Assembly: GCA_016285455.1 (NCBI GenBank)
Contig: JAEEQS010000006.1
Span: forward strand, 62,001 to 126,000
Length of the DNA stretch: 64,000 nt
DNA from: Bacteroidales bacterium
GTDB taxonomy: Bacteria; Bacteroidota; Bacteroidia; Bacteroidales; UBA932
Reading direction: 5' to 3'
The position numbers and the translations under genes were made by a program. Positions 8,185 to 23,250 of this stretch are shown here, in pieces. The notes under the pieces were generated by a model. It ran no database searches. It saw nothing but the letters and a program-made list of their open reading frames with translations, and was not told the DNA's origin. Every line of letters begins with the position of its first letter. Within the stretch, counting starts at the first letter, position 1.

Positions 8185-9003
8185 ATGAAAAAGACAATCA
8201 TCTTGCTGGCAACTCTGGTTTTTGCCGCAACAAGCATCTCCGCCCAAAGGACAATAAAGAACATGAGGTTCGGTTCCCAGTCAATGAACACCTCTGAGGA
8301 AAACTTTGTAAAGAAGCTGGAAAAAGCCGGCTGGACTGCCGCAGGAGCAGACAATTCCACCTTCCAGGGCAAAATCAACGGAATTGAGGTAACAGCTACC
8401 ATCACCCCAGACACAGAAAAGGAAACTGTTGGCAAGATCATTTTGTTCACCGATGCGGATGCAACTCTAAACCCAACCCGTTATCAGGTTCTAAAGAGCT
8501 GGCTTGAAGATATGTACGGAAACCCAACTGTCAACGACCTTAAAGACGAAGACGGTGAAATCTCCTGCTACTGGGGAGACTTCAGAAAAGGAGAGCGTGA
8601 CCTTCAGAGGAACAACGCCTGCATCACCACTGCAGAAAATAATGTAACCATCATTACCCTAATCAACAAGGAAAACGCTCTCGATGCCACAATGAACAAC
8701 ATCGGCGACGCTGTTGAAAGCTTTGGAGACAAGGTAAACCGCACCGGCCAGAAAGCCAAGGAAAAAGGCAAGGAAGGATGGGAAAAGGTAAAGGAAAAAG
8801 GCCAGCAGATTGGAGAAAAATTCTCAGACCGCGCAGAAGATATTGCAGACAAAACCTATGATGAAAGGCAGGCCATAAAGAAAAAGGGCAAGAAGGTGGC
8901 AGACAACGCCTCACGTAAAGCTACAAAGATTGCAAAGAGCGCAGCCAACGGAGCAAAGAGCGCCTGGAAAGCCATCAAGAACGCCGTCAGCAAAAAAGAC
9001 TAA
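8185..9003 (+). CDS. secreted protein with lysine-rich amphipathic helical tail
   Basis: No family is recognised with confidence. The 272-residue product begins with a clean signal peptide (MKKTIILLATLVFAATSISAQ), so it is periplasmic or surface-bound. Residues 22-150 look like a small alpha/beta domain (TITPDTEKETVGKIILF ... YQVLKSWLEDMYG). From about 175 to the end the sequence is almost all K, E, A, G and D in helical repeats (KAKEKGKEGWEKVKEKG), resembling LEA-like or apolipoprotein-like amphipathic helices, and ends in a very basic stretch. The ATG at 8185 is chosen because it precedes the signal peptide; an in-frame GTG at 8140 would place an unlikely leader before it. Confidence 0.7.
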   Translation: MKKTIILLATLVFAATSISAQRTIKNMRFGSQSMNTSEENFVKKLEKAGWTAAGADNSTFQGKINGIEVTATITPDTEKETVGKIILFTDADATLNPTRYQVLKSWLEDMYGNPTVNDLKDEDGEISCYWGDFRKGERDLQRNNACITTAENNVTIITLINKENALDATMNNIGDAVESFGDKVNRTGQKAKEKGKEGWEKVKEKGQQIGEKFSDRAEDIADKTYDERQAIKKKGKKVADNASRKATKIAKSAANGAKSAWKAIKNAVSKKD

Positions 9004-9464
9004 CCTTCCCCGAAACAGCGTTCTTCACAAAGGTTTATGGCGTGGCGGACACAGTCATCGCAGCTGCAGAGAATTTTGCCATGAGTGATTTTGCCTGTCA
9101 CAGGATCTGTCTTAATGCCTTTGATGTCCGAGCATCGCAAAGCCCCTGCCCGTTCCTTGAACTTCTTGCAAATATCTCTTGTTAAAAGCACTGCAGGAAC
9201 TCTTTGCTTTTCTTCACCGCTATTCAGCAGTCCGGCAACCATTCCCGCGCCAACAAGTGCTCCGCAAGTAGCCTCTCCGCAGCCCATACCGCTTCCGAAG
9301 CCGGAACCAAGCGCCACCAAGGCCTTCTGAGCCGTATCCGCAGACTCGCCCTCTTTCACTCCCCAATGTTCCAGGATCTCGGCAGAAAACGCCAGCAGCA
9401 CCGCTTGGCAGCAATTCAGCCCCAACGAATGCTTTCTCTCCAAAGACCATTCCGTCCTTTCCAT
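9000..9464 (-). CDS. C_GCAxxG_C_C family putative redox protein
   Basis: A 154-residue protein with the cysteine pattern of the C_GCAxxG_C_C family: NCCQAVLLAF near residue 17, GSGMGCGEATCGALVGAG in the centre, and CSCDDCVRHA near the C-terminus. These proteins are thought to be redox-active or metal/cluster-binding, and their biochemical role is unknown. The ATG at 9464 lies about 25 bases after a minus-strand -7 box; the longer frame starting at 9506 would include the promoter. Its 3' end overlaps the convergent upstream gene by three bases. Confidence 0.8.
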   Translation of the reverse strand: MERTEWSLERKHSLGLNCCQAVLLAFSAEILEHWGVKEGESADTAQKALVALGSGFGSGMGCGEATCGALVGAGMVAGLLNSGEEKQRVPAVLLTRDICKKFKERAGALRCSDIKGIKTDPVTGKITHGKILCSCDDCVRHAINLCEERCFGEG

Positions 9465-9489
9465 AATGCTTTGATTACAAATGCCTTCA

Positions 9490-9497
9490 CAAATATA
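9490..9497 (-). promoter_or_regulatory. -7 box for the C_GCAxxG_C_C gene
   Basis: Reads TATATTTG on the minus strand (exact TAnnTTTG). It would give a leader of roughly 20 bases to the ATG at 9464. Confidence 0.5.
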
Positions 9498-9662
9498 CAA
9501 ATTCAATTATACAAATCCATAATCTCGCATTTGGCTAAATATAAAATTATAATCAGCCAGATAAGCATAAAAATACCCTCTTTTGGCTGAAAATAACTTT
9601 ACTCAGCGATGACATACCGCTCAAGATTGGAGTAAACATCCCTTACAAACGCCCGCATAATC

Positions 9663-9696
9663 CGCCGTGAGACACCAAAAACAGCCCCTCACGGCG
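9663..9696. other. 9-bp inverted repeat in intergenic DNA
   Basis: CGCCGTGAG (9663-9671) pairs perfectly with CTCACGGCG (9688-9696) around a 16-base loop. No T-run follows on either strand, so it is not a standard terminator. The rest of 9465-9750 holds no gene that I can support. Confidence 0.5.
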
Positions 9697-9750
9697 AATT
9701 ATAGATTTATATTTTGCCGCGAAGCACATTTTTTTACCTTATACGGCAAC

Positions 9751-9780
9751 TTTGATGTTTCAAATAATTGCTTACTTTTG
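9751..9780 (+). promoter_or_regulatory. promoter of the candidate small RNA
   Basis: TTTG at 9751-9754, then 18 bases, then TACTTTTG at 9773-9780: a near-consensus Bacteroidota -33/-7 pair. No open reading frame follows; a structured element and terminator do. Confidence 0.65.
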
Positions 9781-9785
9781 CCAAA

Positions 9786-9884
9786 GAATCGGAAGTTGAT
9801 GGGGTGATAGGAAAAGGGGTAAGCCCTTCTGTCACCAGAACTTGAGATTTCTGAAAACCGCTTTGCTACCAAGGCGGTTTTTTT
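9786..9884 (+). ncRNA. candidate structured small RNA, about 100 nt
   Basis: The stretch between the promoter at 9751-9780 and a strong terminator folds into one rod by eye. AATC (9787-9790) pairs with GATT (9846-9849), AAGTT (9793-9797) with AACTT (9839-9843), GGTGATAG (9803-9810) with CTGTCACC (9829-9836, one G-U), and AAGGG (9814-9818) with CCCTT (9824-9828) around the loop GTAAG. It contains no ORF worth calling. I do not recognise it as 6S, tmRNA or SRP RNA. It lies about 220 bases beyond the 3' end of the BREX operon, on the opposite strand. It could be an ordinary Bacteroidales sRNA or a locus-linked regulator. Confidence 0.6.
9854..9884 (+). terminator. intrinsic terminator of the small RNA
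   Basis: AAAACCGC continued by TTTG (9854-9865) pairs with CAAGGCGGTTTT (9870-9881) through one G-U pair around the loop CTAC, and a T-run follows. This is the strongest terminator in the window. Confidence 0.85.
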
Positions 9885-10103
9885 CTATTCGGCAACCTTT
9901 CTATGAGTCAAATAATCATACCACTCGTCTGGCTGGAAATCGCCACCACAACCAATCAGTTACAACAAAAGTTTACACCCTTTTTTTGAGGGGCAGATTG
10001 ACGAGAAGAAAAAATAAGTAACTTAACAATATCGTGAATGAGAATAGTTTGTCGATTATATCTTTTCCCGTCATATAGGATGTCGCTAATACATCTATTA
10101 TCT
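9885..10103. other. AT-rich non-coding spacer
   Basis: Short overlapping frames exist on both strands but have no recognisable sequence, start context or composition bias, so no gene is called here. It separates the small RNA from the 3' end of brxL. Confidence 0.5.
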
Positions 10104-11579
10104 CTATATGTTCAAAAGCTCTTCCGGAGGCGTAATGGCAGGTTGCTTTTTTACACAAATATCCGGCATCGGCTTTGCATATGTAGGTTCAAAATCTATA
10201 TTGTTACATTGCTGGCGAATAATATCCCTACGGTGAATAGCAGGTTCTAAACAATAGATCTCAAATTCTTCTCTATTCAACTCATTTTCTGAAGTAACGT
10301 GAGGAAAAAGAAGTTTTAAGTAGGCCGTTGAAATCTTTTTGACAGCTTTAAGATGTCGGGTGTCGGCATCCTGCGGATATTCTATAACGCTGTTAACAAC
10401 AGCGGCATATTCAGGGTCCGTTCGGAGTTGATGCATTATTTCCGAAAAGAACTCCACATTGAGAGTCCAATCAGTTAGAATCATATTATTCTTAATGCGT
10501 GGAAGCAACCAGCCTTCTATGAAGCCATGGAAGCGATCAAGCAAAGCAGATTCTCTAAAATTTTCCGGAAGCTCTTCAAAATAACGATTGCTCATCGGAA
10601 ATCCCGTATCTGACAAGCGGATATTTCCAAGAAGCATAAGACCGCACTCAGACATAAACTCGTAATTGTCGACTTTGGTCTTTCCATCTTCTAAATATGC
10701 TTTGAGGAAAGACTGCATCTCGGCCCCATCAGTAAAACTAATTGTCTGAATCTCATCGAATGCTACCGCATCGTAAAACCGCATAATTCCTGGCAATTGT
10801 TTTTGCTTATCATAGAAAAGCTTTGCACGAGATACTTTACCTCCGCTAATGAGCCAAACAAATTTGGAAAGGTTATTAAACACATATGACTTACCCGTAC
10901 CCTTGGGGGCAAGCTCAATCATATTGAGTCGTGGTTCAATGAATGGAAGGAGTCGTGTTAAGAACTCCAACTTTTGAGTCTTTCCTGAGAAAGAATCTGG
11001 ATTATACTCCATAGCAGAAATCAGGACATCTATCCACTCATCAGTCGTGAACTTTTTCCTACTCTCACGAAATGCATTTAGATCAAGTTTCTCCATCGGA
11101 CGGAATGGCTTAAACTTAACCATTTCAATATGACCACCAGATTTTCCATTTTCCGGAGCCATATATACCAATTTAAGGATACCCCACCTCTCTCCATCAA
11201 TCAAGTCATTAGGAAATTCCTCTACTAAATACCGAGGAATCTCTGTGTCTCCAAATTTAATTCCCATATCTGGAATTTGGAATTGAATTACCCCTTTAGA
11301 GATGTTTGTGGAGACGATGAAACGGGTGAGCAGTGTTAAAGTTTCACCTTGTAATAATCTCGATTTTACTGAATTGTTGTCAGCTGGGATATGAGAATCC
11401 AAGAATCTAACTAATTTTTCCCGATAGAAAGTGCCCTCGGGAGAAACATGGGTAGAAATCAAGTAATCCTTAATGAATGATGGAAGATTTCTGCCACTAA
11501 ACACATCATAATTGGCCGGATTTTTATATACAGCTGCAACGCCAAATACTTGCTGGATCTTTTTTCCTAACTTATTCAT
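10104..11579 (-). CDS. brxL: BREX protein BrxL-like AAA+ ATPase (short form)
   Basis: Last gene of the BREX operon, 491 residues. The N-terminal region (YDVFSGRNLPSFIKDYLIS) resembles the BrxL DNA-binding start. The AAA+ core follows: Walker A APKGTGKS at 224-231, Walker B VAFDEIQTI at 272-280, a sensor-like LGN at 317-319, and an arginine-finger-like LLDRFHGFIEGW near 347-358. Many BrxL proteins are about 680 residues with a C-terminal Lon-protease-like domain. This one ends about 130 residues after the arginine finger and I see no Ser/Lys protease motif. Known BrxL forms DNA-binding rings and is needed for phage defence in type 1 systems. The start lies two bases after pglZ. A shorter family form is more likely than a truncation, since the stop follows a complete AAA+ lid. 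Confidence 0.85.
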   Translation of the reverse strand: MNKLGKKIQQVFGVAAVYKNPANYDVFSGRNLPSFIKDYLISTHVSPEGTFYREKLVRFLDSHIPADNNSVKSRLLQGETLTLLTRFIVSTNISKGVIQFQIPDMGIKFGDTEIPRYLVEEFPNDLIDGERWGILKLVYMAPENGKSGGHIEMVKFKPFRPMEKLDLNAFRESRKKFTTDEWIDVLISAMEYNPDSFSGKTQKLEFLTRLLPFIEPRLNMIELAPKGTGKSYVFNNLSKFVWLISGGKVSRAKLFYDKQKQLPGIMRFYDAVAFDEIQTISFTDGAEMQSFLKAYLEDGKTKVDNYEFMSECGLMLLGNIRLSDTGFPMSNRYFEELPENFRESALLDRFHGFIEGWLLPRIKNNMILTDWTLNVEFFSEIMHQLRTDPEYAAVVNSVIEYPQDADTRHLKAVKKISTAYLKLLFPHVTSENELNREEFEIYCLEPAIHRRDIIRQQCNNIDFEPTYAKPMPDICVKKQPAITPPEELLNI

Positions 11580-11581
11580 TT

Positions 11582-14005
11582 TTATAGATCAAATTCATCT
11601 TCAATGTTTCCAGCACCGAGGCCATAAAACTCAATGCTTATTTCGCAAGGTTCGCCAGTTTCTGGAATAATGATAAAGTTATTAATTCCTTCTTTTAAGC
11701 CATCTACTTTAGCAGCCCATTGGGTGTTTTTTCTTGTCATTTCGTAATCCTTTCCGCCAAACCTTACATAGGCAGAAGAAGGTTGAGGAATAATTGTAAC
11801 CTCCACCAATGCATCCGTTATCGCCACCTTGGTTTGTTTCGGGATGACTTCAAATACTTGCTTAAACGACTCGGACTTATTCGATATTATAATTAAAGGT
11901 ACTATCACTTCTTCAGGGGTAGCTCCTCCATGAACTTCATGTGTTGGTTTTTTTGAAAGGGATGAATGGGTCAATGCAATACGGTAATATTTTTGATCGT
12001 CCTCATTCTGGTGTGTGAAAAAATAGTCATCATCTGCAAACTTATCTTTTTCTACCTGAAGGAATCGTCCCTCATGATCATACCTGCCTTCAAGCTTTCT
12101 CGAATCAGCTTTCCTAGAAAGAGAACTCATTCCATGATCAGAAACAATAGCAATTGTTATGGGAGTTCCTCGATTATCAGAGATAATGCGTCTGAGATAA
12201 GCACATATCAGATCTATTTCTTTTACAAGAGTGGCAAATACTTTATACTGAGCACTATCGTGTCCAATGCAATCAATGCCATCAAATTTTGAAACACCAT
12301 CATCATAAAAACCATTTAAAGTGGTTTCCGAAGGTAGATTTGATCTTGTATACTCTGAGTGTACAATATGAAATTGTCCGTCCTCCTCGATAAGTTTCTT
12401 AATAAGGGAGAAATACTCGATACCTAAACCATCAAGCCAATAAATCCGATCTGGTTTTAAGTTTGGAGACAACGATAAATTCTTGAGACGCTCTTTTGAG
12501 TTAGCAAAATTAAAGTACCAGCTATAAAATGCATCACGACTTGCGTTCTTCTCTTTAATAACCGCTATGACTTCATCAGTAAGCGTATCAATTATCTTAG
12601 CATATTTATATCTATCTGCATAATCGTATGCCCATTCTTGCTTCCCTGAATATTCATTAGGAATAGACTTCTCAATATAATATGCAAGTTCTGGATACAA
12701 CTTGATTGCTTTTCTAGAGCATTCTTCTCCTTTATGATGAGCATATACACCCATCAAATACTCTTTCTCAAAATCAAAAGTCCCTGTACAGAAAAAAACA
12801 GCTGCATCTGTTGACTGTTTTCCTGTCTCAATTATGTGTTTTTGTATCCATTCCTGTTGTGAAAGAGGCACGTTTTGAACAAACAGATATGATAGTTTCT
12901 TCATAATGCGCTCACGCTCATCATGATACCTGGCAGCCTCGCTCGGCACATAAAAAATATATTGAGCAATCTTTGTAAATAATTGATAAGGCTTATCCAA
13001 ATCAGAACATTCCGATAGACAGAGATGCAAATAATCACTATGACTCAGTTCCGGTGTTTGCTCTAAATATTTTTTCAGGAGCCACCTATCATAAGATGTT
13101 CTTTCTGATTGCCCCCAAACTTCCAGAGCAGCATCTGGAGTAAGACGGGCTTTGTTAAAACGCTCACGGATAAAGCCCCATAAGTCAAAATCATCTTTGT
13201 GGTTATCAATAATGTCTTTTAACAGGATATCCAAGAATGTGTCTTCTTCCTTATTGTAGTCAAAACTGAGATTAATATCCATGAATTGCGTAATATAATC
13301 ATACGCATTTGTGATTGGAGTGAACTTAAAAATGTTGTCCGGCCGAGAGTACTTACGGTTAACATTAATCGGAAGTGAAGAACAGATAATCTTCTCTTTA
13401 GGAGCATCCTTCCAGAAAAGAAGCCACTCCGACAAAGTGCGAAGATGACACCTTTTACCAATAGCTGAAGGATTTAAGTCTTTGTATTTGTCAATAACAT
13501 AAACCTCGACAGGCTGGTATTCCAAGTCACTATACTGCCAAATTGGAGCACTTTCGCTTAATCTGCCAAAGTGGGAAAGAAAATCAGTAAACCGATTCTC
13601 AAGTCCTATAATAGGTATATAAATGCGATTCCCTTTACATCTTTCAGAGAGTATAATTTCACTAAAGAATCCTCTAAATTGATCATCAGGATAAAACCTA
13701 ACGAGTTCGGAAAAGGGCGTAATCAGGGAAGGTGTGTTGCAACTAAAAACGAGATCTTTAAGGGTGTCCGTTGAAATCCAGGTATCTGGCTCGTCAGATG
13801 GGATTAGACAATCGAGACCTATCATATTGACATCCATCTCAATTAGTTCGGCAACCAATTTTCTAAGCGAATCGAAGTTATTAAGCATAATAAAGCGGAC
13901 ACCATACCGCTGCGATAAGAAATCACGGGAAGATGCATCGGCTTTAATTGCGCCAATGAGATCATTGAATGAGGAATATCGTATAATTTTCTCTGATACT
14001 TCCAT
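11582..14005 (-). CDS. pglZ: BREX protein PglZ, alkaline-phosphatase-fold
   Basis: The signature protein of BREX systems, 807 residues. The C-terminal alkaline-phosphatase-superfamily domain carries the metal-site motifs in order (numbered from the chosen Met): WLDGLGIEYF (about 523), IVSDHGMSSL (about 620) and EVHGGATPEEVIVPL (about 690). The long N-terminal half has no recognisable motif. The ATG at 14005 is chosen because it lies four bases after the brxC stop; the longer frame from 14068 runs back into brxC. PglZ's chemical role is unknown, although a phosphodiesterase activity has been proposed for family members. The tight spacing on both sides puts it in one transcript with brxC and brxL. 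Confidence 0.92.
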   Translation of the reverse strand: MEVSEKIIRYSSFNDLIGAIKADASSRDFLSQRYGVRFIMLNNFDSLRKLVAELIEMDVNMIGLDCLIPSDEPDTWISTDTLKDLVFSCNTPSLITPFSELVRFYPDDQFRGFFSEIILSERCKGNRIYIPIIGLENRFTDFLSHFGRLSESAPIWQYSDLEYQPVEVYVIDKYKDLNPSAIGKRCHLRTLSEWLLFWKDAPKEKIICSSLPINVNRKYSRPDNIFKFTPITNAYDYITQFMDINLSFDYNKEEDTFLDILLKDIIDNHKDDFDLWGFIRERFNKARLTPDAALEVWGQSERTSYDRWLLKKYLEQTPELSHSDYLHLCLSECSDLDKPYQLFTKIAQYIFYVPSEAARYHDERERIMKKLSYLFVQNVPLSQQEWIQKHIIETGKQSTDAAVFFCTGTFDFEKEYLMGVYAHHKGEECSRKAIKLYPELAYYIEKSIPNEYSGKQEWAYDYADRYKYAKIIDTLTDEVIAVIKEKNASRDAFYSWYFNFANSKERLKNLSLSPNLKPDRIYWLDGLGIEYFSLIKKLIEEDGQFHIVHSEYTRSNLPSETTLNGFYDDGVSKFDGIDCIGHDSAQYKVFATLVKEIDLICAYLRRIISDNRGTPITIAIVSDHGMSSLSRKADSRKLEGRYDHEGRFLQVEKDKFADDDYFFTHQNEDDQKYYRIALTHSSLSKKPTHEVHGGATPEEVIVPLIIISNKSESFKQVFEVIPKQTKVAITDALVEVTIIPQPSSAYVRFGGKDYEMTRKNTQWAAKVDGLKEGINNFIIIPETGEPCEISIEFYGLGAGNIEDEFDL

Positions 14006-14009
14006 AAAA

Positions 14010-17000
14010 CTAAGATAGATATTTTGTGATATATTCTGCCACTTCTGGATGCTCATTAATAAGCTCAAGAACCATCTGCTGCCACATCATGTTTGGCATA
14101 TTCATATTTTTAACATTGTTCTTGGCTTTCGCAATAATGTCCTTTGGAATTTGCTTAGAAGGCACTTCTTCAATAGTTTCAGAGTTTCTTTCATTTGGGG
14201 ATTGGTTACTATCCGATGTATTTCCACTCTCGGATTTTGATAGGGAGGAAGGATTCTGTGTTGTGGAAGTCTCAACAGTTTTTGTCTTTCTATGGCAGAA
14301 CTTGAGAATTAAGTTCTCTACATCACTCTCTTTTCTAAAGGCCACTTCTTCCGGAAGGACTGTCAACTCATCTAGGAGCTCGTTCCACCACTCTTTCTTA
14401 ATGGAAATATCATCTTCTTTTTCTATCTTTTCTGCAAACTTTACGAATCCTTGTGTATAGTTGTCTGCATTCTTTAATATTGGAGGAAGTTCCATTTTAA
14501 AAGATTCAAGTTGATTTGAAAGCTCTTTTATTCTCTCAAGTTTGGGCGATTCCTGCTCAAAGAGGGAAATGATGCTTCTAATAGCCTTTTTATAGTTCTC
14601 TTTTTGGAAAACCTTATCGCAATATAACAGTGTCCATAATGGCTGCTTGGCCACTTTCTTACAAAACTCTTGGACACCCCAACGAGCATTATGTAGACTC
14701 TTAATTTCATTGATATTTACAACATCTTTGAGATTGAAGAAAACCGCTATTTGCTTTGTTAGTTTACTTTCTTCCGGTGATCCAAAACGAAGTAGCAATT
14801 TATTATTGCTTTCTGAGCGGCCTTCATCCCACATCTTAAATAATAGGACTATCATGTCTGAAAGACCCTCGTCGGAAACAGGCTGAGATGTGCTCGGCTG
14901 GAATAGGTCTCCTTTGTGTTTCCTAATCGCATATGATAGTGCGGCCCAGTTCGCCTTGCTAGGGAAGAAGCCATATGGTGCTTTCATAAATGGAGCAAGG
15001 ATTTCTGAAAGGGAGAACCTATCTTGATATTTTTTGTGTGCATCCTCTATGCACTTGTCCATGAGTTTGCAGACTTCAACAAGCCAAGAACTACCAGAAA
15101 GAGCAAGATCTGTCAATTCACAATCCTCGCGAACAAGAAAAGTGTCGTTTTCTTGGAAAATTAACTTGATAGGAGAATTTTCCCCTGTAAAAGTGGTTAA
15201 TTGATCTCGGTTCTGAGCTTGGAGAATTTGCGTAACTACGGCAGGGTAATTCTTGTTCTTGAAGAAGGTCATAGGTACAGAATTCTGAATGCGTTTTATG
15301 CTCTCCATTCCCCTAGGAAAAATCTGTCGACCTATCTTCCTGTTGAGTAATTTACCCACCTCCTTAAAAATACCATCAGAATAGGACTCGCCCTTGAACC
15401 ATAATTTGTAGGATCCCGCTGAAATTTGCTGCACCCATTTTGTGATATATTGTTTGGCACTCTTCTCGCACTCTGCCGCTTGGTTATCATTGAAATATCT
15501 CTTGGCAAGAGCGTAATTGGCCATAAAATCAATGAACTTATTTGTAGAATCAACTGAAAATGTCTCATCAGGGACTATCAGAATAGCATTATGGCATTCT
15601 ACAGACAGGTCTCTTACCTTGTTTTGCATATAATCTCTTGACTCTTCTGTAAGAGAGAGGAAAAGGCCGACGTGAAGAGCATTGGGCTTGTCTTCTACAA
15701 ACTTTTTCAGTTTACTTCGAATGATACTCTCAGTCTCTTCACAAGAGTAGAATTGAACTTCAGCCTTACGAAGAAGAGATTCACCAACTGCAAACGCAGA
15801 TAAGAGCTGAGCCTTCTTGTTACTATCAAAATCCAGAATGCTCAGAGCTGTCTTATATGTGCTCTGAAGTTTTGTTTTCTCTTCAGTGATTTCATTTGCA
15901 TTATATGAAGTAGCGGATATCTTGAATTCGCCAAAAACATTACGTGAAACGATTTTGTTATTATCAATGTAATCAAGAATGTCATTGAGTTTATCTGAAA
16001 GACGATCTCCTAAAAACATGAATTGAAGATTCTGTTCGTTGGGAATAATGCGTTCCGGGGTGCCGCCATCGCGGAATTTGTTCTGAAGGGCATTAAGGAG
16101 AAGTATAGACTTGAAAACGCGATAATAATCTTCGCTCATACCTGAGAGATGAATGCTCTCTGTTCGATAAACATTTGTGAAAATGCTGCATTGAGAATCG
16201 CTATCAAACTCTGACTCAAAGAAATCCCAAAGCCATTCTGGAGTGACCAATTGATTGGTATTGAAAAAGGCTTCATTATCCAAGAAAGCCTTAAAGCCAT
16301 CTGTTTCATCATTCATAAATCTGATAACGCTACGGTTGGCTGAACCAATTAGATTTGATAAGACGGAACAAAGGTAGGCCGTATAAGGGTGCATCGGGAA
16401 CAAGTCGTTTATGCGTTGCTTTTCCTCTTCATTTCCTGAAGGGCAGAGATAGTCAAGCAACCCCTTTAGTTTGTTTGTGCCATTGTATTGAAGTATACGC
16501 ATATCCGTTTCGGATACACCTTGCTTAACACCAAAAGTATGGCGCATGATAAGATATGTTGAAATATCGTCCATACGATATTCAATATTCTCAAAACGAT
16601 CACTCATTTTTGTAATATCCTTACCACGGCTATCCAAGCTTTGAGACTCCGCTCTATGAGAAATTAAAAACAAAAACAGATTGTTGTTTTGGGATTTCTC
16701 AGCAATATTCTGAAGGACATTGATACGATCGCTTTTGATTGTATCCATAACAGAAGTAAACTCATCCCAAAAGATAATAAGTCCATCTGCGATACCCTTC
16801 GCTTCAATCTCTTTTTCAACTTCAACGAGCCAATCACTAATGGTTGCTGCTTCAGAATTAAGATGGATTTTATAAACGCTATCCAAGGATTCTTCCAATG
16901 CAAGATATGTGTCTGTGTCGTTTATCTTAAGTTTTGAAATAATTTTTTCGGGACTGGAAGCCAACATCTTAAGAGAATCGCTTTGTTCAATAACATCAGA

Positions 17001-17507
17001 AATAATCTGACGATGCTTCTCTATGTATGCAATAGCTGTTTCATAATCAGAAGAAACCACTATATCAGAATACCCAGCAGCTGCCAATGCTTTCTTTGTG
17101 TATTTTTGCAATGAGAGGGAAAAACGAGGTATATCATATGCTCCTTCAACACCCTTCAGAACGACTGGGAAGAATTTTTTTTCTTGACGGAATGAACGAA
17201 TTTTTTCTCGAATCACAACATCTGTGATGGAATTGAGGTAGCCAATTATCACATTAAAATCATCACAAAGGAGATGTTTTATAACAGCACTGGCATGGCT
17301 TTTCCCTGTACCAAATGTTCCTCGTACCCACATGCTCTTTCTCTTTGATGCGTCAGAAGAGGTAAGTGCTGTTAAAGACTTATTGAGCAACTCTCCAAAT
17401 TGCTTAGTGGGGATAAATGATGTCCAATGACCTTCTTTCTCGTCCGCAATGTCATATACGGGAAGAAAATCCCTTAATTCATAATAGTCAGAGTACTTCT
17501 TCTTCAT
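14010..17507 (-). CDS. brxC: BREX protein BrxC/PglY-type P-loop ATPase
   Basis: A 1165-residue ATPase. Walker A GTFGTGKS lies at residues 63-70, Walker B LIIFWDEF at 243-250, and a sensor-like LFLFLISHRAES near 277. This is the BrxC/PglY arrangement: an N-terminal STAND/AAA-like ATPase followed by a very long helical region. Near the C-terminus (about 1050-1100) there is a low-complexity Ser/Asn/Gln/Glu linker, then a helical end. In characterised BREX systems BrxC is essential for defence and probably couples ATP hydrolysis to DNA recognition. It begins four bases after brxP and ends four bases before pglZ. Base composition is visibly more AT-rich than the flanking housekeeping genes. Confidence 0.9.
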   Translation of the reverse strand: MKKKYSDYYELRDFLPVYDIADEKEGHWTSFIPTKQFGELLNKSLTALTSSDASKRKSMWVRGTFGTGKSHASAVIKHLLCDDFNVIIGYLNSITDVVIREKIRSFRQEKKFFPVVLKGVEGAYDIPRFSLSLQKYTKKALAAAGYSDIVVSSDYETAIAYIEKHRQIISDVIEQSDSLKMLASSPEKIISKLKINDTDTYLALEESLDSVYKIHLNSEAATISDWLVEVEKEIEAKGIADGLIIFWDEFTSVMDTIKSDRINVLQNIAEKSQNNNLFLFLISHRAESQSLDSRGKDITKMSDRFENIEYRMDDISTYLIMRHTFGVKQGVSETDMRILQYNGTNKLKGLLDYLCPSGNEEEKQRINDLFPMHPYTAYLCSVLSNLIGSANRSVIRFMNDETDGFKAFLDNEAFFNTNQLVTPEWLWDFFESEFDSDSQCSIFTNVYRTESIHLSGMSEDYYRVFKSILLLNALQNKFRDGGTPERIIPNEQNLQFMFLGDRLSDKLNDILDYIDNNKIVSRNVFGEFKISATSYNANEITEEKTKLQSTYKTALSILDFDSNKKAQLLSAFAVGESLLRKAEVQFYSCEETESIIRSKLKKFVEDKPNALHVGLFLSLTEESRDYMQNKVRDLSVECHNAILIVPDETFSVDSTNKFIDFMANYALAKRYFNDNQAAECEKSAKQYITKWVQQISAGSYKLWFKGESYSDGIFKEVGKLLNRKIGRQIFPRGMESIKRIQNSVPMTFFKNKNYPAVVTQILQAQNRDQLTTFTGENSPIKLIFQENDTFLVREDCELTDLALSGSSWLVEVCKLMDKCIEDAHKKYQDRFSLSEILAPFMKAPYGFFPSKANWAALSYAIRKHKGDLFQPSTSQPVSDEGLSDMIVLLFKMWDEGRSESNNKLLLRFGSPEESKLTKQIAVFFNLKDVVNINEIKSLHNARWGVQEFCKKVAKQPLWTLLYCDKVFQKENYKKAIRSIISLFEQESPKLERIKELSNQLESFKMELPPILKNADNYTQGFVKFAEKIEKEDDISIKKEWWNELLDELTVLPEEVAFRKESDVENLILKFCHRKTKTVETSTTQNPSSLSKSESGNTSDSNQSPNERNSETIEEVPSKQIPKDIIAKAKNNVKNMNMPNMMWQQMVLELINEHPEVAEYITKYLS

Positions 17508-17511
17508 AATT

Positions 17512-20064
17512 CTATAGCAATGCTTTTAATATCTCAAAAGAGGTGAGATCGTCCCGGAGGTTAATATTATCAAGACCCATATTAAGCTCTACTGTCAGAA
17601 CATGATGCTCCTCTTCCTGAATAGAACGGAGTAATTTTTCTAATGTAATACGATCTATTCCAAACTGCCGATAAATACCCTCTGTTTGGTTATCATTATA
17701 AAACTCTGAAACAGTTAGAGATTTACGTCCCTGTTTCTCCGCATATTTGTAAAGAGAGTATGCTACAGCAACCATTGAAAGCTCATGGTAAGTTTCGCGT
17801 TTAACAGTATCAACCGTTTTCCCTTTGACACGGATAAGACCTTGCTTTAATTCATCACCAATTATGGTTTCTTCTCCGATGCCAAACATATTGCAGAGAG
17901 CACCAACCGGATTTGCAAGAGTGTTCTTGGCAATGTTTTCAAATTGCATCTGCATCATTTCCAAAATATCTGGTTTTGTATACTCTCTATTAAAATGAAT
18001 TGTAGAAGTATAGAATTTGATAGCCTGAGAATTCTCGGATAAATTAATCCATAGAATTTCCCAGATGGTCTTTGGATTATCAAGATACTTCTGCCTCAAT
18101 ACGTCTCCAAGAGGGGAAATAACCTTGTCTTTAGAATCAAGGATTTCACATTCTCTAAACCAATTTACGCATGCTGGTATCATCTTGGTTCCAAGTTGAT
18201 TATCGCCTTTAAAGAAGGTCCGATAATTTGAAAAGAATTCACTAATCCACTTATCCTTTAATCCGAAAGTAGAGTAGCGATCTATTCCAGAGGTTGCCAT
18301 TGTCTTGTTTTTTTTAATAAGTGATTCTGATATATTAATCGAGTTCGCCATAATGCATCCACGATTCTTGAAAGTGAGGCACTTCTTGCACTGAATGCAC
18401 TTTTGACCGTTGATTTTTACTATAGGTGTAACAACAAGAGCTCCTGACGGGCATTCAACTTCACAAACTTCACAATGGATGCAGTAAGTTGTCTTATATA
18501 ATACGCGCTTGATTAACCCTTGAAAAATAACATTATCTCCAACATTCTGTATTAAAACCGTCGTTTTTTCTTTCTTTGTTATTATGTGCAGAGGATAAGA
18601 ATTATGAAGGTAATCAATGGCTCCAGAAAAGCTTTCATCAGTTGAATCAATAATAGAAATCTTTCCCAAAGGTTTAAGCCAAGTTAATAGATTCTCCTTG
18701 GGCGAAATAAGCTCTGCTTTAAAGTCTGGAGAAGTGGTAATAAATTGAACTGATGAACCTTCTGTATTTGAGGTTTTCCCTCCTGCACGAAGTTTCCAGT
18801 TGCCGCTTTTGATATAATCATCCTTTTCTTTCTTTGTATGTATAGAAAGCGCATCTGTCATCTTGTACAAGTAATCCACAAACGGCTTGATAGCTTCAGG
18901 ATACTTTTTTGACACCAAAAATTCTGACCAATCTGATGAGAATGGGCAAAGGGAACAGCCAACTCTTGAAAAGCCTTCTCGATAAGCATGGTTGAAGGGA
19001 ATATTACGAAGTAGGATATAGAGATAGATTTCTGTTGAGTTCCAATCAAGGATAGGACGAGCATTGATCACATTATTGTGTTTTACCCCTTTTCCAAGTC
19101 TCTGATATTGGGCGCGTCTGTCACTTTCCTCTGCTCTAACACCCTCAAAAGCAAGGACAATTGGCTGTTTGTCGAGTGCAGCTATTTCCTTTAGTTTTCT
19201 ATAGAGGGGGGCTGTCTTCATAACACCACAACACCAACGATGCATTCTGCTTGGAGAGCCAAGTTTTTCCCAATATGATATAACATTCTGCTCGTTCTCA
19301 GCTGAATAAAACTTTAGATTGGGATATTGAGGATGATAATAATCTTCAAGTTCTTTATATAGGCTTAATGAAGTGGGGAGTTCATAACCTGTATCCGAGT
19401 AAATAACTAAAAAATCTTCGCTAGGAACTACTCTTGCAACGAGATCGAGTACAACCTGCGAATCTTTGCCACCAGAAAATGATGCAATAAAAAGATCAAC
19501 CTTGCTGCTCAAAATAGGAGCCTTGCCTTGAGCTTCTGCCTCTGACAACGGCATTACATCGAAACTATCGCATTCTTCTTTTACAACGACATGTTCTTCC
19601 TTTGTCTTTTTCCCGAGTCTTTGAGCAAGTTGTTGGAAATCAATATCAGGATTCAGCTCAGTTATTTTTCGTAGTCCTTTATACCTGCGATAAGTTTGAT
19701 TAATAAAATCCATAGCCTCATGCTCCAGCAGGAAAATGGAATCTTCATTCATCTTCCGCAAGTATTCAATATCTATGGGAACTATTGATAAGTGTTCTTT
19801 TCCAGGCACTATTTGGATAGAAGGAGCATCAAAGATATTACCACCTTTGATTTCCATAACAACCTCACCATTATAAAAATATCTCCTATCGCATGCCCAC
19901 ATCAAAGGATTTTTACTTTCCGGATAAATCCAACCCATTTTATTAAGACCGAGAAGATTCAGTTCCTCGAAAAAAACGGGACGTGGAGACACGTTAAGGG
20001 CCTCTCCCTTAGAAGACATTGTAAGCCTTACAGTATTTTTCTTATCCCAAATAACCTTAAACAC
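17512..20064 (-). CDS. brxP: BREX type 4 protein BrxP: PAPS-reductase/DndC-like with ferredoxin module
   Basis: First gene of the operon, 850 residues. The PAPS-reductase/DndC-type domain has the PP-loop SFSGGKDS at 195-202, HRWCCG at 275-280, FEGVRAEESDRR at 307-317 and GCSLCP at 369-374. Cysteines 278/279 and 370/373 resemble the Fe-S ligands of DndC-type enzymes. A two-cluster ferredoxin-like segment follows, with C528, C531, C534, C538 and then C556, C559, C562 and C570. The C-terminal 250 residues begin 'DRYSTFGLKDKWISEFF', which fits the DUF4007-type domain seen with DndC relatives. DndC homologues activate DNA for sulfur insertion (phosphorothioation). Whether BrxP modifies DNA is inference. 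No desulfurase, DndB/D/E or Ssp gene is nearby. Confidence 0.88.
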   Translation of the reverse strand: MFKVIWDKKNTVRLTMSSKGEALNVSPRPVFFEELNLLGLNKMGWIYPESKNPLMWACDRRYFYNGEVVMEIKGGNIFDAPSIQIVPGKEHLSIVPIDIEYLRKMNEDSIFLLEHEAMDFINQTYRRYKGLRKITELNPDIDFQQLAQRLGKKTKEEHVVVKEECDSFDVMPLSEAEAQGKAPILSSKVDLFIASFSGGKDSQVVLDLVARVVPSEDFLVIYSDTGYELPTSLSLYKELEDYYHPQYPNLKFYSAENEQNVISYWEKLGSPSRMHRWCCGVMKTAPLYRKLKEIAALDKQPIVLAFEGVRAEESDRRAQYQRLGKGVKHNNVINARPILDWNSTEIYLYILLRNIPFNHAYREGFSRVGCSLCPFSSDWSEFLVSKKYPEAIKPFVDYLYKMTDALSIHTKKEKDDYIKSGNWKLRAGGKTSNTEGSSVQFITTSPDFKAELISPKENLLTWLKPLGKISIIDSTDESFSGAIDYLHNSYPLHIITKKEKTTVLIQNVGDNVIFQGLIKRVLYKTTYCIHCEVCEVECPSGALVVTPIVKINGQKCIQCKKCLTFKNRGCIMANSINISESLIKKNKTMATSGIDRYSTFGLKDKWISEFFSNYRTFFKGDNQLGTKMIPACVNWFRECEILDSKDKVISPLGDVLRQKYLDNPKTIWEILWINLSENSQAIKFYTSTIHFNREYTKPDILEMMQMQFENIAKNTLANPVGALCNMFGIGEETIIGDELKQGLIRVKGKTVDTVKRETYHELSMVAVAYSLYKYAEKQGRKSLTVSEFYNDNQTEGIYRQFGIDRITLEKLLRSIQEEEHHVLTVELNMGLDNINLRDDLTSFEILKALL

Positions 20065-20117
20065 TTAATAATAAAAACGTTTAGCTCGAAAAACACATAA
20101 TTCAACAAATAAAAAGA

Positions 20118-20208
20118 AAGTGCGAGCCAATTAACTCATTCAGATGGTAGGCACCAGGCGAACCTGGTTCTGGACTGCCGCAAAGTGAATGAGAAATAGC
20201 TCGCACTT
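20118..20208. repeat. long imperfect inverted repeat
   Basis: AAGTGCGAGC (20118-20127) pairs with GCTCGCACTT (20199-20208). The arms extend inward imperfectly to CTCATTC/GAATGAG, and ACCAGGCGAACCTGGT forms an inner hairpin. The same GTGCGAGC word recurs at 20245-20252, so this is part of a repeat cluster. It could be a mobile non-coding repeat or a structured RNA. Confidence 0.7.
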
Positions 20209-20246
20209 CCACTATAGCGCAGGCCGAAGCCCAGGTTATAGCCAGT

Positions 20247-20318
20247 GCGAGCGTCTCGCTCTATTCTACCTTTGCTTGAATTGTCCAGATTCACCATCGT
20301 AGAATAGCGTTAAACGCT
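20247..20318. repeat. REP-like inverted pair (REPIN/BIME-like)
   Basis: Two short hairpins face away from each other, each bordered by the same word. On the minus strand GTAGAATA is followed by a GCGAG/CTCGC hairpin (20247-20259, with CTAC at 20266-20269). On the plus strand GTAGAATA (20299-20306) is followed by the palindrome AGCGTT-A-AACGCT (20306-20318). A GTAG tetranucleotide next to an imperfect palindrome, in inverted pairs, is the layout of REP sequences moved by RAYT (Y1) transposases. No transposase is present in the window. Confidence 0.6.
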
Positions 20319-20491
20319 TTCTTTCATTATGTCTGCAAGATGAGAATATGCATCAACTGAAATCGGTGAATACACAATCTCCCAAAAATGCTATCAAATA
20401 TACCAAAAGAAAGGTACAATTCCAAGATTTGCCGGTACAATCCTGGAATAGCAATGTGTTATTTGATTGTATGTTTGAGTTTTTGTTTGAA

Positions 20492-20902
20492 CTACTGGAG
20501 CTTGAAGATTACCGGAAAGACATAGGTTACGGCAACGGGTTCTCCTTTGTGGCGGGCAGGCTTCCATTTAGGGGAAGAAGATATTACGCGGAGGGCTTCT
20601 TTGTCTAGGCTGGGATCAACGCCGCGCAGGACTTTGGCGTCTTTGAGAGTACCGTCCTTGTCTATGGTGAACTGGATGGTTACCCTGCCCTGGATGCCGC
20701 TTTCCCTAGCAATCTGAGGATATTGGATGTGGGCGTAAACCCATTTTGCAAAGTCTGAGTCAACAACTATCGTTTCCTGAAATACAGGCTTTTCATCTAC
20801 ATCGTTGAAGTTCATTGGCCTTGTCTGGGCAAAGGCCTTGCTCTGGCCTGCAAGAAGCAGGGCGCTCAGTGCAACTGTTGCAGCAACAAACAGCTTTTTC
20901 AT
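20492..20902 (-). CDS. secreted TonB C-terminal-domain protein
   Basis: A 136-residue protein with an N-terminal signal peptide (MKKLFVAATVALSALLLAG...FAQ). The rest is one TonB C-terminal fold: 'VYAHIQYPQIARESGIQGRVTIQFTIDKDGTLKDAKVLRGVDPSLDKEALRVI' and 'WKPARHKGEPVAVTYVFPV'. It lacks the membrane anchor and proline-rich spacer of a full energy transducer, so it may be a free periplasmic domain or an anchor-cleaved paralogue. A duplicated promoter block lies immediately upstream. Confidence 0.85.
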   Translation of the reverse strand: MKKLFVAATVALSALLLAGQSKAFAQTRPMNFNDVDEKPVFQETIVVDSDFAKWVYAHIQYPQIARESGIQGRVTIQFTIDKDGTLKDAKVLRGVDPSLDKEALRVISSSPKWKPARHKGEPVAVTYVFPVIFKLQ

Positions 20903-20940
20903 AATGCTATGCTTTATTTGTATTATTCTACGATTTACTT

Positions 20941-21060
20941 GCGGTTACCAAATTTAGCAAAAAATATGGATTGTACGGATGATTCCAGAATCGTAAATAA
21001 ATGAGGGAGAAAGTTTCGGGAGATGGAGAGATTGAGATATGCGGGGTTTATATTTGCGTT
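20941..21060. repeat. promoter block, copy A (copy B at 21951-22070)
   Basis: Aligns without gaps to 21951-22070 (offset exactly 1010): about 87 of 120 positions match by eye, with 51 of the first 60. Both copies hold a minus-strand -7 box TAAATTTG (here 20949-20956), the short palindrome GATTC-CA-GAATC (here 20981-20992), and a plus-strand -7 box TATATTTG (here 21049-21056). This copy sits between the TonB-C gene and the XRE gene, which point away from each other. Confidence 0.75.
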
Positions 21061-21067
21061 CAATAGT

Positions 21068-21098
21068 TTTGAATTATTAACTTTTATGCTTATTTTTG
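21068..21098 (+). promoter_or_regulatory. promoter of the XRE regulator
   Basis: TTTG (21068-21071), 19 bases, TATTTTTG (21091-21098): an exact Bacteroidota -33/-7 pair, 27 bases before the ATG at 21126. Confidence 0.75.
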
Positions 21099-21125
21099 CA
21101 AGGACGATTTATGGAAAGATAACAT

Positions 21126-21395
21126 ATGAAAAAGAGTAACAAGATACTAGAAGAAATACGAGAGGGTATTTCCCCTGAAATGAAACTGCAAATGGAATTG
21201 TCTGTTGCCATTGCAAACAAGGTCTATGACATTCTTGAGAAAAAGGGAATGTCTCAGAAAGACTTTGCTCAGCTGATTGGAAAAACGGAAACGGAAGTAA
21301 GCAGGTGGCTATCAGGGACACACAATATGACGATTGCAACAATCAGCAAGATATCTTGTGCTCTGAAAGAAGACATCATAAAAGTGCCTGCCTAG
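21126..21395 (+). CDS. XRE-family helix-turn-helix regulator, antitoxin-like
   Basis: An 89-residue protein with a helix-turn-helix in the second half: 'LEKKGMSQKDFAQLIGKTETEVSRWLSGTHNMTIATISKISCAL'. The size and the helical lead-in (EMKLQMELSVAIANKVYDIL) resemble HigA/MqsA-like antitoxins of type II toxin-antitoxin pairs. No toxin ORF lies directly before it, and the gene after it is an unrelated carbonic anhydrase on the other strand. It is therefore an orphan antitoxin or a small stand-alone regulator, with its own consensus promoter. Its target is unknown; the palindromes in the neighbouring duplicated blocks are possible operators. Confidence 0.8.
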   Translation: MKKSNKILEEIREGISPEMKLQMELSVAIANKVYDILEKKGMSQKDFAQLIGKTETEVSRWLSGTHNMTIATISKISCALKEDIIKVPA

Positions 21396-21406
21396 TCTAG
21401 TTGTGG

Positions 21407-21943
21407 CTATTTAACTTCAGACAAGGCGCCTGTTACAGAATCTATGATGAAGCCGCGGACTACAACATCCTTGGGCACAAGCGGATGGGTTACAATCGCT
21501 GAGACAGTGTTGCGGACAGAAGCTTCCGTATCGTGGAACCCCTCCAGCCATTGCTCAACGCCCTTGGTTTCCCACTCGGCAAGGGTTTCTTCAGCAACTC
21601 CCCTCTCCAGCATATGCGGCCTGAAGTCACCGTAGCTCATATGGCAGGCTCCGCAGGTTGAGTGATGCACCACCATCACTTCCTCCACGCCCAGCTCATA
21701 AATTGCAACCAGCAGAGAACGTATGGCAGAATCTGTCTCAGACAGAACAAGCCCGCCGGCATTCTTGATGATCTTGGCGTCTCCGTTCCTCAGCCCAAGC
21801 GCTTTTGGAAGCAGCTCTGTAAGCCTGGTATCCATACAAGTCAGTACAGCCAGTTTCTTGGACGGGTACTTGTCCGTGACATACGGCTCATACTCCTTGT
21901 CAGCCACAAACTTTTTGTTGTATAAAAGTATTTCCTCTATCAT
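21407..21943 (-). CDS. beta-class carbonic anhydrase
   Basis: Interconverts CO2 and bicarbonate in the cytoplasm. The zinc ligands and catalytic dyad are visible as CMDTR (Cys and Asp-Arg) and HHSTCGAC (His and Cys). The product is 178 residues from the ATG at 21943. The longer frame begins at a TTG inside the upstream promoter block, with a -7 box TAAATTTG at 21959-21966 on the minus strand, so the shorter start is preferred. It fits the small beta-CA subgroup of about 180 residues. Confidence 0.92.
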   Translation of the reverse strand: MIEEILLYNKKFVADKEYEPYVTDKYPSKKLAVLTCMDTRLTELLPKALGLRNGDAKIIKNAGGLVLSETDSAIRSLLVAIYELGVEEVMVVHHSTCGACHMSYGDFRPHMLERGVAEETLAEWETKGVEQWLEGFHDTEASVRNTVSAIVTHPLVPKDVVVRGFIIDSVTGALSEVK

Positions 21944-21950
21944 AATTATT

Positions 21951-22070
21951 GCGTTTACCAAATTTAGCAAAAAATGCGGATTGTGTTGATAATTCCAGAA
22001 TCGTCAAAAAGTGAAAGGGATTGTTTGGGAAGGCGGAAAGAGTTAGGTCTTGGGATGTTATATTTGACGG
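21951..22070. repeat. promoter block, copy B
   Basis: Second copy of the block at 20941-21060, in the same orientation. It again lies between a minus-strand gene (carbonic anhydrase) and a plus-strand gene (DUF1016 nuclease). It keeps both -7 boxes (minus 21959-21966, plus TATATTTG 22059-22066) and the ATTC-CA-GAAT palindrome near 21992-22001. The inner half is more diverged than the two ends. Confidence 0.75.
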
Positions 22071-22090
22071 ACACTGTTAAGAGAAAAGAT

Positions 22091-23131
22091 ATGAAGAAGA
22101 CGGGAATAATAGATCCGGAATATTTACAGTGGATCAAAGAACTGAGTTTGCGTTATCGCAGAGGACAAATCAAAGCTGCGGTCAAAGTCAATCAGGAAAT
22201 GCTCCGGTATTACTGGGATCTTGGAAAAGACATTGTTCAAAGGGATGCCGAGAATAAATATGGAAGTGGTTTCTTTAATGTACTTAGCCGTGATTTGAAG
22301 GCATCATTAGGTTTAAGCAAGGGGTTTTCTCCTACAACCCTTAAGTATGCAAAATATTTCTATTGTCTTTATTCTCAGGCTCTTGAAAATCGTCAGCAAG
22401 TTGCTGACGATTTGGATTCTATTTTTATAATCCCCTGGTCACAGCAAATGGTTATTATTGACAAGACAAAAGGAGATATAAACAAAGCTCTGTTTTTCAT
22501 AAAGAAAACAATTGAGAATGGATGGAGCAGAAGTACACTGCTGAACTTTCTTGATACTGATTTATATAAACGGTCTCAACATACGTTAACGAACTTCGAG
22601 AGGACTCTTCCAAAGGAAAACAGCGATCTGGCTTCAGAGATAATGAAAGATCCATATAGTTTTGCTTTTACGGGTATACTTGAACCCTACAATGAACATA
22701 AACTTAAGAACTCCTTGATAGACAACATCTCTCAATTCTTGGTGGAACTGGGGACCGGATTTGCGTATGTAGGCAAAGAGTACCGTCTTCAAATCGGTGA
22801 CCATGAAAGATTTCTTGATCTTTTGTTTTATAACCTCAAGCTGTCTTGTTATGTGGTAATTGAAGTCAAAATAGGAAAACTGGATTTTGGAGATATCGGG
22901 CAACTTGGCGGATATGTAGTAGCATGCAATCACCTGCTCCGAAAGCCAGGCAGGGATAATCCGACGATAGGTCTTTTGATATGCAAAGAAAAAGACAATT
23001 TGATAGCGCAATATGCTCTAGAAGCCAGCAATCAGCCCATAGGAATTTCTGAGTATGAGTTGGCAAAACTGTATCCTGAGAAAATAGAAGGAACTATTCC
23101 GACCATTGAAGAAATGAAGGCTAAACTATAA
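22091..23131 (+). CDS. DUF1016/YhcG-type PD-(D/E)xK nuclease-family protein
   Basis: A 346-residue member of the YhcG/DUF1016 family. The N-terminal domain (YRRGQIKAAVKVNQEMLRYYWDLGKDIV) is the helical DUF1016_N part. The C-terminal domain carries the PD-(D/E)xK nuclease pattern (ERFLDLLFYN ... YVVIEVKIGK). The family's function is unresolved, and it often lies near mobile or restriction genes. The ATG at 22091 is chosen because it follows the -7 box at 22059-22066 and matches the usual family N-terminus; the longer frame from 21974 would start within the promoter repeat. A 27-bp palindrome (22387-22413) lies inside the coding region, encoding RQQVADDL at about residues 100-107, and two more palindromes follow the stop. 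Confidence 0.88.
   Translation: MKKTGIIDPEYLQWIKELSLRYRRGQIKAAVKVNQEMLRYYWDLGKDIVQRDAENKYGSGFFNVLSRDLKASLGLSKGFSPTTLKYAKYFYCLYSQALENRQQVADDLDSIFIIPWSQQMVIIDKTKGDINKALFFIKKTIENGWSRSTLLNFLDTDLYKRSQHTLTNFERTLPKENSDLASEIMKDPYSFAFTGILEPYNEHKLKNSLIDNISQFLVELGTGFAYVGKEYRLQIGDHERFLDLLFYNLKLSCYVVIEVKIGKLDFGDIGQLGGYVVACNHLLRKPGRDNPTIGLLICKEKDNLIAQYALEASNQPIGISEYELAKLYPEKIEGTIPTIEEMKAKL
22387..22413. repeat. palindrome 1, inside the DUF1016 gene
   Basis: Arms of 13 bases around one central G, with core AGCAAGTTGCT. It belongs to a family of five palindromes between 22387 and 23886 that share RCAANTTGY at the centre but have different outer arms. Confidence 0.85.
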
Positions 23132-23132
23132 C

Positions 23133-23157: not shown

Positions 23158-23169
23158 ACTGACAACCGG

Positions 23170-23200: not shown

Positions 23201-23250
23201 AGTGAACCATATGGAAAAAGCCCAAAAATCGTGGATTGAATTTAATAAAG

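Follow-up and report, generated by a model that had tools for sequence, protein, structure and literature searches.

Type 4 bacteriophage exclusion (BREX) systems are encoded by the gene set brxPCZL, which has been listed as one of three known families for phosphorothioate (PT) synthesis (PMC11931770) and described as PT-based (PMC12839542, section 34). In the latter source, DUF4007 is fused to a PAPS (3′-phosphoadenosine 5′-phosphosulfate) reductase, together with a 4Fe-4S-type region; a cysteine desulfurase accompanies type 4 in 56% of taxa and is not a required feature, and housekeeping desulfurases can stand in for a dedicated one (section 34). The absence of a methyltransferase is the rule for type 4. 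An N-terminal inactive STAND domain of PglZ has been reported in 64% of the taxa with this type. We analyzed a stretch of 64,000 nucleotides from a Bacteroidales genome (contig JAEEQS010000006.1, positions 62,001 to 126,000; the window), which carries an operon with these four genes, brxP-brxC-pglZ-brxL, on the minus strand at positions 10104-20064. As judged from the comparisons below, the operon is a type 4 BREX of the kind already described, its gene content and sulfur marking being in print; its BrxP is a mosaic protein, the center of which moves as one block between operons that are otherwise alike, and such an exchange sets the window brxP apart from the gene of its closest relative.

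An earlier note on this DNA, made from its letters alone, had assigned the four genes to the type 4 class, and profile searches bear this out. The PADLOC BrxP model scored 865 bits (E 1.4e-260) over residues 2-849 of the brxP product and the BrxC model 457 bits over residues 4-1164, while PglZ and BrxL scored 232 and 660 bits. The NCBIfam models BREX_PglZ_4 (NF033445) and BrxL (TIGR02688) reached 507 and 452 bits, with cut-offs of 140 and 329, and Pfam recognized BrxL_ATPase and BrxL_N in the BrxL product. BrxC, which as an AAA+ family member would have an ATPase role, was matched by neither Pfam nor NCBIfam at E 0.001 and gave a weaker SspC match of 53.7 bits in PADLOC. The AlphaFold2 model of PglZ (predicted local distance difference test [pLDDT], 89.2) retrieved 9zn5_B as its best Foldseek match, from a complex with the PglZ of the Acinetobacter BREX system, followed by PorX.

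The tight packing described earlier was also found: with ATG 14005 as the pglZ start, the genes are 4, 4, and 2 bases apart. Extending pglZ to TTG 14068, the start of its longest open reading frame (ORF), would create a 59-base overlap with brxC; we preferred the ATG because the consensus of 40 PglZ proteins (alignment A4) begins alike. A single-sequence BrxP search of genome contigs gave no match; a profile built from nine BrxPs retrieved 255 relatives, 80 of which were fetched as loci (L numbers below). All four genes were detected at 62 of the 80 public loci, with order P-C-Z-L and strand identical in 62/62; at the other 18, which were not checked singly, at least one gene was unseen, often close to a contig end. 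The operon shares with type 4 BREX the four genes, their order, the DUF4007-BrxP fusion, the 4Fe-4S-type segment, and the lack of a methyltransferase, none being seen inside or beside the operon. It differs in having no adjacent cysteine desulfurase, in that no gene for a PT-binding domain was found, and in a BrxP center unlike that of its nearest backbone relative.

Pfam placed PAPS_reduct at residues 194-374 of BrxP, Fer4_6 at 523-543, and DUF4007 at 598-847; the earlier note had listed neither the C-terminal DUF4007 domain nor the ferredoxin-like segment, which contains eight cysteines. The PAPS domain bears the motifs SGGKDS at 197, WCC at 277, and GC..CP at 369, and we take its CC plus CxxC pattern to recall the 4Fe-4S site of APS reductases. 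The ferredoxin-like segment contains two four-cysteine sets (528/531/534/538 and 556/559/562/570). We aligned 69 BrxPs (alignment A3; 2346 pairs), comprising the window protein and 68 of the 80 fetched relatives; L094, L096, L098, L106, L145, and L146 failed length or stop filters, and L088, L089, L103, L134, L136, and L150, several of them close copies, were thinned by hand. In A3 and A4 the window sequence starts at the second codon, and alignment numbers are therefore one below protein numbers. All three motifs are kept in 69/69 BrxPs, and the eight ferredoxin-like cysteines are invariant across the 69 rows. The AlphaFold2 model of BrxP (pLDDT, 88.7) matched the PAPS reductase 2oq2 and the SspB structures 6lb9 and 6juf in the PDB, with E values of 2e-6 to 8e-6.

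BrxP thus shows likeness to two other PT systems. With Ssp (SspBCD), the DUF4007 part resembles SspB (35.6 bits in PADLOC; 6lb9, 6juf), the PAPS domain resembles SspD (51.6 bits), and BrxC weakly resembles SspC. In contrast to Ssp, the SspB-like and SspD-like parts are fused in BrxP, BrxC scores 457 bits as BrxC against 54 as SspC, and PglZ and BrxL stand in place of the SspE or SspFGH named in the literature, for which no search of the genome was made. With Dnd, BrxP shares the PP-loop PAPS-reductase domain found in DndC, but scored 23.7 bits with the DndC model TIGR03183 (cut-off, 290.4; 30.2 bits in PADLOC) and falls in a separate tree group, and a DndC search of the genome gave no match at E 1e-40. 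The PAPS-reductase assignment in the earlier note is therefore upheld, whereas the special likeness to DndC is not.

We built a tree of PAPS domains from 13 BrxPs (every sixth A3 row plus L048), 11 of 12 CysH loci (without L184), 10 of 11 SspD loci (L163 lacking the motif), and 8 of 8 DndC loci. Each family formed one group, BrxP with support of 92/88, below our star threshold, and the other three starred. Could BrxP be an assimilatory (P)APS reductase that lies in the operon by chance? CysH profiles outscore DndC on BrxP (TIGR00434, 72.8 bits; cut-off, 165.1), and the free tree joins BrxP to CysH (97/84). However, this join, where long branches meet, is not firm, as trees with BrxP+SspD and BrxP+DndC were not rejected (approximately unbiased [AU] test, p 0.59 and 0.61); moreover, BrxP carries DUF4007 and lacks the C-terminal ECG[IL]H motif (0/69 BrxPs versus 11/11 CysH). 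On the basis of motif, domains, and tree, we rejected a role of BrxP in sulfate assimilation and regard it as highly improbable. By these comparisons, BrxP is a separate group outside CysH, SspD, and DndC, the branching order of the four families being unsettled.

The earlier note had also considered that there may be no host mark at all. In that case the operon would defend without one, and BrxP would perform some other sulfur or redox chemistry. The operon contains no dedicated desulfurase (no PF00266 match), and BrxP stays far under the DndC cut-off. Against this, the PP-loop and all metal-type cysteines of BrxP are intact, housekeeping desulfurases can replace a dedicated one (PMC12839542), and PT synthesis by brxPCZL has been reported (PMC11931770 and PMC12839542). 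Because brxPCZL is listed in print as a PT writer, we regard the absence of a host mark as very improbable, and sulfur-based marking, the other option raised in that note, as likely. Its remark that the chemistry appears little studied holds only in part, given these reports.

The evidence that BrxP is a mosaic came from comparing identities along the protein. Between the window and its same-genus relative L075, identity is 0.81 at the N terminus, 0.68 in the PAPS domain, 0.32 in the beta-rich middle, 0.61 in the ferredoxin-like segment, and 0.46, 0.31, and 0.85 in the successive thirds of DUF4007, while BrxC and BrxL are 0.79 and 0.89 identical. The middle and the second DUF4007 third of this pair are near the family medians over all pairs (0.30 and 0.26), which make these the most divergent parts. 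We then expressed the identity of the center as the mean of the middle and the first two DUF4007 thirds. Among the 127 of 2346 pairs with N-terminal identity of at least 0.70, the center is below 0.5 in 100, between 0.5 and 0.6 in 2, and at least 0.6 in 25; among the 16 pairs at 0.90 or more, the corresponding counts are 9, 0, and 7, the pairs having common members and hence being non-independent. In the same 16 pairs, BrxC, PglZ, and BrxL never fall below 0.5 where measured (11, 6, and 6 pairs), and BrxC, measured in 5 of the 9 low-center pairs, is at 0.75-0.96.

L082 and L083 illustrate the pattern, with identities of 0.91 at the N terminus, 0.96 in BrxC, and 0.94 in the C-terminal tail (C-tail) of BrxP, and 0.40 in the center. 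Their DNA identity is 0.94-0.99 at the start of brxP, drops to approximately 0.5, and returns to 0.75-0.93 from near the end of the gene. The limits of the block were delineated with 50-residue windows of BrxP, which correlate with the middle at r 0.78-0.95 between residues 301 and 750, at 0.25-0.44 before residue 300, and at 0.64 and then 0.46 past residue 750. The exchangeable cassette hence runs from the end of the PAPS domain through the beta-rich domain and the ferredoxin-like segment into DUF4007, of which it takes in the first two thirds. When BrxC, PglZ, and BrxL were scanned in 60-residue windows, none of these tracked the BrxP center above r 0.54.

Trees of the separate segments conflict accordingly. 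Of 68,766 triples, 156 are in conflict for segment Mid, 253 for Da, 324 for Db, and 24 for the ferredoxin-like segment, compared with none for the PAPS domain, 2 for the C-tail, and none each for BrxC, PglZ, and BrxL. The N-terminal tree recovers five groups chosen from identities as clades (support, 89-99), all of which the center rejects (AU p 3e-67 to 5e-4). The window shows the conflict in both directions. Its grouping with L075 has support of 94 at the N terminus and 91 in the C-tail and is rejected by the cassette (AU p 7e-5); its grouping with L073, L074, and L076 has cassette support of 98.8 and is rejected by the N terminus (AU p 8.5e-9) and the C-tail (3e-10). Two named Prevotella strains, L133 and L141, are 0.91 identical at the N terminus and 0.35 in the center, and are paired in the N-terminal tree (89) and split by the center (p 1e-4). 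Since these named strains show the pattern, metagenome chimeras are unlikely to account for it. Faster but tree-like evolution of the center was rejected, because it fits neither the identity gap nor the reciprocal tree conflict of the window. We found no mention of BrxP module exchange in the literature searched, as far as its texts were available; the primary type 4 preprint (Yuan et al. 2024) lay outside it.

In HsdS of type I restriction-modification systems, target domains are exchanged between conserved flanks while the partner subunits stay constant. The variable part of BrxP is likewise exchanged between conserved flanks with constant partners; it differs from HsdS in lying inside a presumed sulfur-transfer enzyme and in spanning approximately 460 residues. 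We read the BrxP center as DNA-binding because an overlapping region has a Foldseek match to SspB, and a swapped center probably changes which DNA sequence is marked. With a probability of about 0.75, we propose that these four genes form a minimal type 4 BREX, which writes a PT mark and blocks invading DNA that lacks it, with the BrxP center selecting the sequence. A housekeeping SufS-type desulfurase would supply the sulfur, which the PP-loop domain and the iron-sulfur clusters of BrxP would put onto the DNA phosphate, as suggested by its family and the literature. The center, exchanged as described above, would select the DNA sequence together with the SspB-like DUF4007 region. By analogy with other BREX systems, BrxC would couple marking to restriction, and PglZ and BrxL would act on unmarked DNA.

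The main competing explanation is that the variable center is not DNA-reading and represents a surface that escapes phage-encoded inhibitors or contacts partners. Exchange and divergence alone do not reveal what is selected, the center contains parts of the catalytic and ferredoxin-like region, and the same appearance would be expected of a region that changes under pressure from phage inhibitors. However, divergence is highest in the beta-rich domain and in the middle of the SspB-like DUF4007, the pattern resembles the exchange of type I target domains, and the lack of any BrxC, PglZ, or BrxL window that closely follows the center is contrary to a changing protein interface. We therefore consider a non-reading surface unlikely, and prefer sequence selection by the center.

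Besides the similarity to inhibitor escape, several observations weigh against our proposal. In addition to likely DNA-contact domains, the exchanged part takes in the ferredoxin-like segment and the last portion of the PAPS domain. Low identity is not exclusive to the center, since among the pairs with N-terminal identity of at least 0.70, values below 0.5 occur in 2/105 pairs for BrxC, 14/76 for PglZ, and 11/127 for the C-tail. No pair (0/2346) combines a center of at least 0.6 with an N terminus below 0.6, so that the exchange seems confined to related operons. The Prevotella conflict is one-sided, as the N terminus does not reject the center-supported L133+L142 (p 0.75), and the C-tail is undecided for the Prevotella pair (p 0.6); similarly, L083+L084+L087, a starred clade of the center, is not rejected by the N terminus (p 0.40). 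The groups for the AU tests were picked post hoc from identities, and the tree searches were quick, some constrained trees outscoring the free tree. Finally, the searches for desulfurases and methylases described below rest on a genome of 2.15 Mb in 25 contigs that is estimated to be 90.9% complete.

In a number of relatives, the exchanged block may include a second gene. An ORF of approximately 145 residues lies between brxP and brxC at 27 of the 80 loci (25 intact, 2 interrupted), and the same domain occurs in a longer protein behind brxL at five more loci; 23 of the 25 intact ORFs were aligned (alignment A2). Three ORFs of this size and the longer proteins were scanned, and neither Pfam nor PADLOC matched any of them. 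The ORF profile matches the solved chain SBDHga1 (8h0l) with an E value of 2e-25, the SBD of which presumably stands for the sulfur-binding domain of PT-DNA readers (PMC6224610, PMC7470945). The stand-alone ORF is thus possibly a reader of the PT mark, and we found no description of it in the literature searched, as far as its texts were available. Between L113 and L132, which carry the ORF, DNA identity recovers only in brxC. Mean reader identity is 0.45 where the BrxP centers differ (30 pairs) and 0.63 where they are alike (6 pairs), a co-variation that is explicable by linkage because the ORF adjoins the exchanged block. The domain was not found in the window or its genome by a profile search run without a positive control. 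It was also observed in an SspD locus (L153:230-1510), with a weak match in a DndC locus (L173:1069-1338).

We consider it somewhat more likely than not that the cassette of approximately 460 residues sets the PT motif and is swapped to change the mark, and that in a large subset of operons the block extends through the reader gene, as between L113 and L132, writer and reader traveling together; the window operon belongs to the reader-less subset. The mosaic structure of BrxP bears on what decides which sequence type 4 BREX marks and spares. For Dnd, DndE has been suggested to act in motif choice, and a different route has been suggested for Ssp, in which DndD gives way to another ATPase (PMC10853773). 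If the cassette sets the motif, the window with L075 and the Prevotella strains L133 and L141 represent natural test pairs, and motifs would be predictable from cassette classes.

Coordinates of the type 4 BREX operon, of segments of BrxP, and of related features; positions refer to the window unless preceded by a locus number.
Feature	Coordinates	Strand	Remarks
brxP	17512-20064	minus	850 aa, GTG start
brxC	14010-17507	minus	1165 aa
pglZ	11582-14005	minus	type 4 PglZ; ATG at 14005 preferred start
brxL	10104-11579	minus	Lon-like AAA+ protein, 491 aa
PP-loop PAPS-reductase domain of BrxP	18943-19485	minus	Pfam PF01507, 122 bits
Ferredoxin-like segment of BrxP	18355-18483	minus	Fer4_6, 27.2 bits
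Exchangeable central cassette of BrxP	17785-19167	minus	about residues 300-760, edges approximate
Constant C-terminal third of DUF4007	17515-17778	minus	about residues 763-850; 85% identical to same-genus L075
Stretch absent between close genes of operon-less relatives	9507-21406		between C-GCAxxG gene and carbonic anhydrase
Candidate reader ORFs (examples)	L108:12531-12992, L128:12511-12939, L134:12505-12948
Longer brxL-distal proteins	L084:19910-20521, L087:18037-18645, L088:19902-20522, L092:10519-11340, L104:19840-21714

The remainder of the window genome was searched for a methylase or a sulfur donor. The earlier note had stated that the PglX methylase is absent; none was seen in the operon, and no missed PglX was found elsewhere in this genome, PglX models scoring 19 and 24 bits on its N6-methylase matches (cut-offs, 500 and 400). 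The genome has three PF02384 matches, none of them PglX-like, the best models being HsdM, MAD2, and PrmC, all below cut-off (matched parts only). It has six PF00266 matches. The strong one is SufS-like, with 448 bits (cut-off, 475; matched part only), and would be the presumed donor; a second, SerC at about 62.7 kb, is the only PF00266 match within the window, and the remaining four are weak. There is accordingly no cysteine desulfurase beside the operon by the PF00266 search of the window, and a motif scan of the 80 fetched relatives, many with short flanks, found none either. Among the loci scanned, a cysteine-desulfurase-like motif frame occurs solely behind brxL in L048 (L048:12931-14059), a distant type 4 operon with a BrxP 28% identical to that of the window. 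BrxP is the sole PF01507 match in the genome; neither a second PAPS-reductase domain nor, at E 1e-40, a DndC match was found.

BrxP matches above 400 bits were found in 10 of 299 family genomes, one of them partial, including three in the genus (G000, G027, and G258); a 122-bit fragment in G104 comes next, followed by 64 bits. The 262 of 299 genomes with matches at E 0.001 include short cysteine-rich matches and other PAPS-reductase proteins. In G104, a complete BrxP, another long but divergent one (26% identical to that of the window), and an N-terminal fragment lie on different contigs (L040, L041, and contig C133), and several systems are possibly present. Full-length BrxP relatives were also observed in MT835963.1 (1359-3869; 43%), a 14.7-kb record labelled Bacteriophage sp. 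that may be bacterial DNA, and in NZ_CP118754.1 (36%), a Methanosphaera plasmid record.

Composition and gene neighborhood point to horizontal acquisition of the operon, which appears to have entered the genome as a unit. Its GC content of 0.381 is lower than that of the flanks (0.483 and 0.478), and three relatives lack the operon at the same site. These relatives, L050, L051, and L069, have a block consisting of nhaA, a hypothetical gene, the C-GCAxxG gene, and carbonic anhydrase, and their fetched stretches contain none of the operon genes. The C-GCAxxG and carbonic anhydrase genes lie virtually side by side in L050, and are separated by approximately 1.8 kb in L051 and 2 kb in L069, where carbonic anhydrase is broken. 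L064-L068 have parts of the left block, no operon genes in the stretch, and no carbonic anhydrase beside it. The copy of the operon in the same-genus genome G258 is 59% identical in BrxP, 78% in BrxC, 68% in PglZ, and 89% in BrxL, and none of the window flanking genes were found around it except a 36% DUF1016 relative.

A DUF1016/YhcG PDDEXK nuclease gene is located at 21974-23131. It was rejected as a part of the system, as an 85% identical copy is present in L051 without the operon and as it lies in the locus in only 4 of 80 relatives; by this comparison, the nuclease belongs to the variable site and not to the operon. Two segments at 21068-21386 and 23834-23886 are approximately 89-94% identical to places in L051, out of gene order, and look like repeated or mobile intergenic elements of the variable region.

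An Rfam scan of 9000-24500 at gathering thresholds gave no match. Upstream of brxP, at 20118-20208, is an inverted repeat with 15-base arms that are 87% complementary and 61 bases apart, and a 9-base arm of it pairs again at 20244-20252. No ORF of at least 30 residues resembling a helix-turn-helix (HTH) protein was seen by eye upstream of the window brxP, no model search having been made. At 16 of the 80 loci, a small HTH gene of the Cro/C1 type is found directly upstream of brxP (e.g., L127:757-1068 and L124:9787-9999) and likely encodes a regulator.

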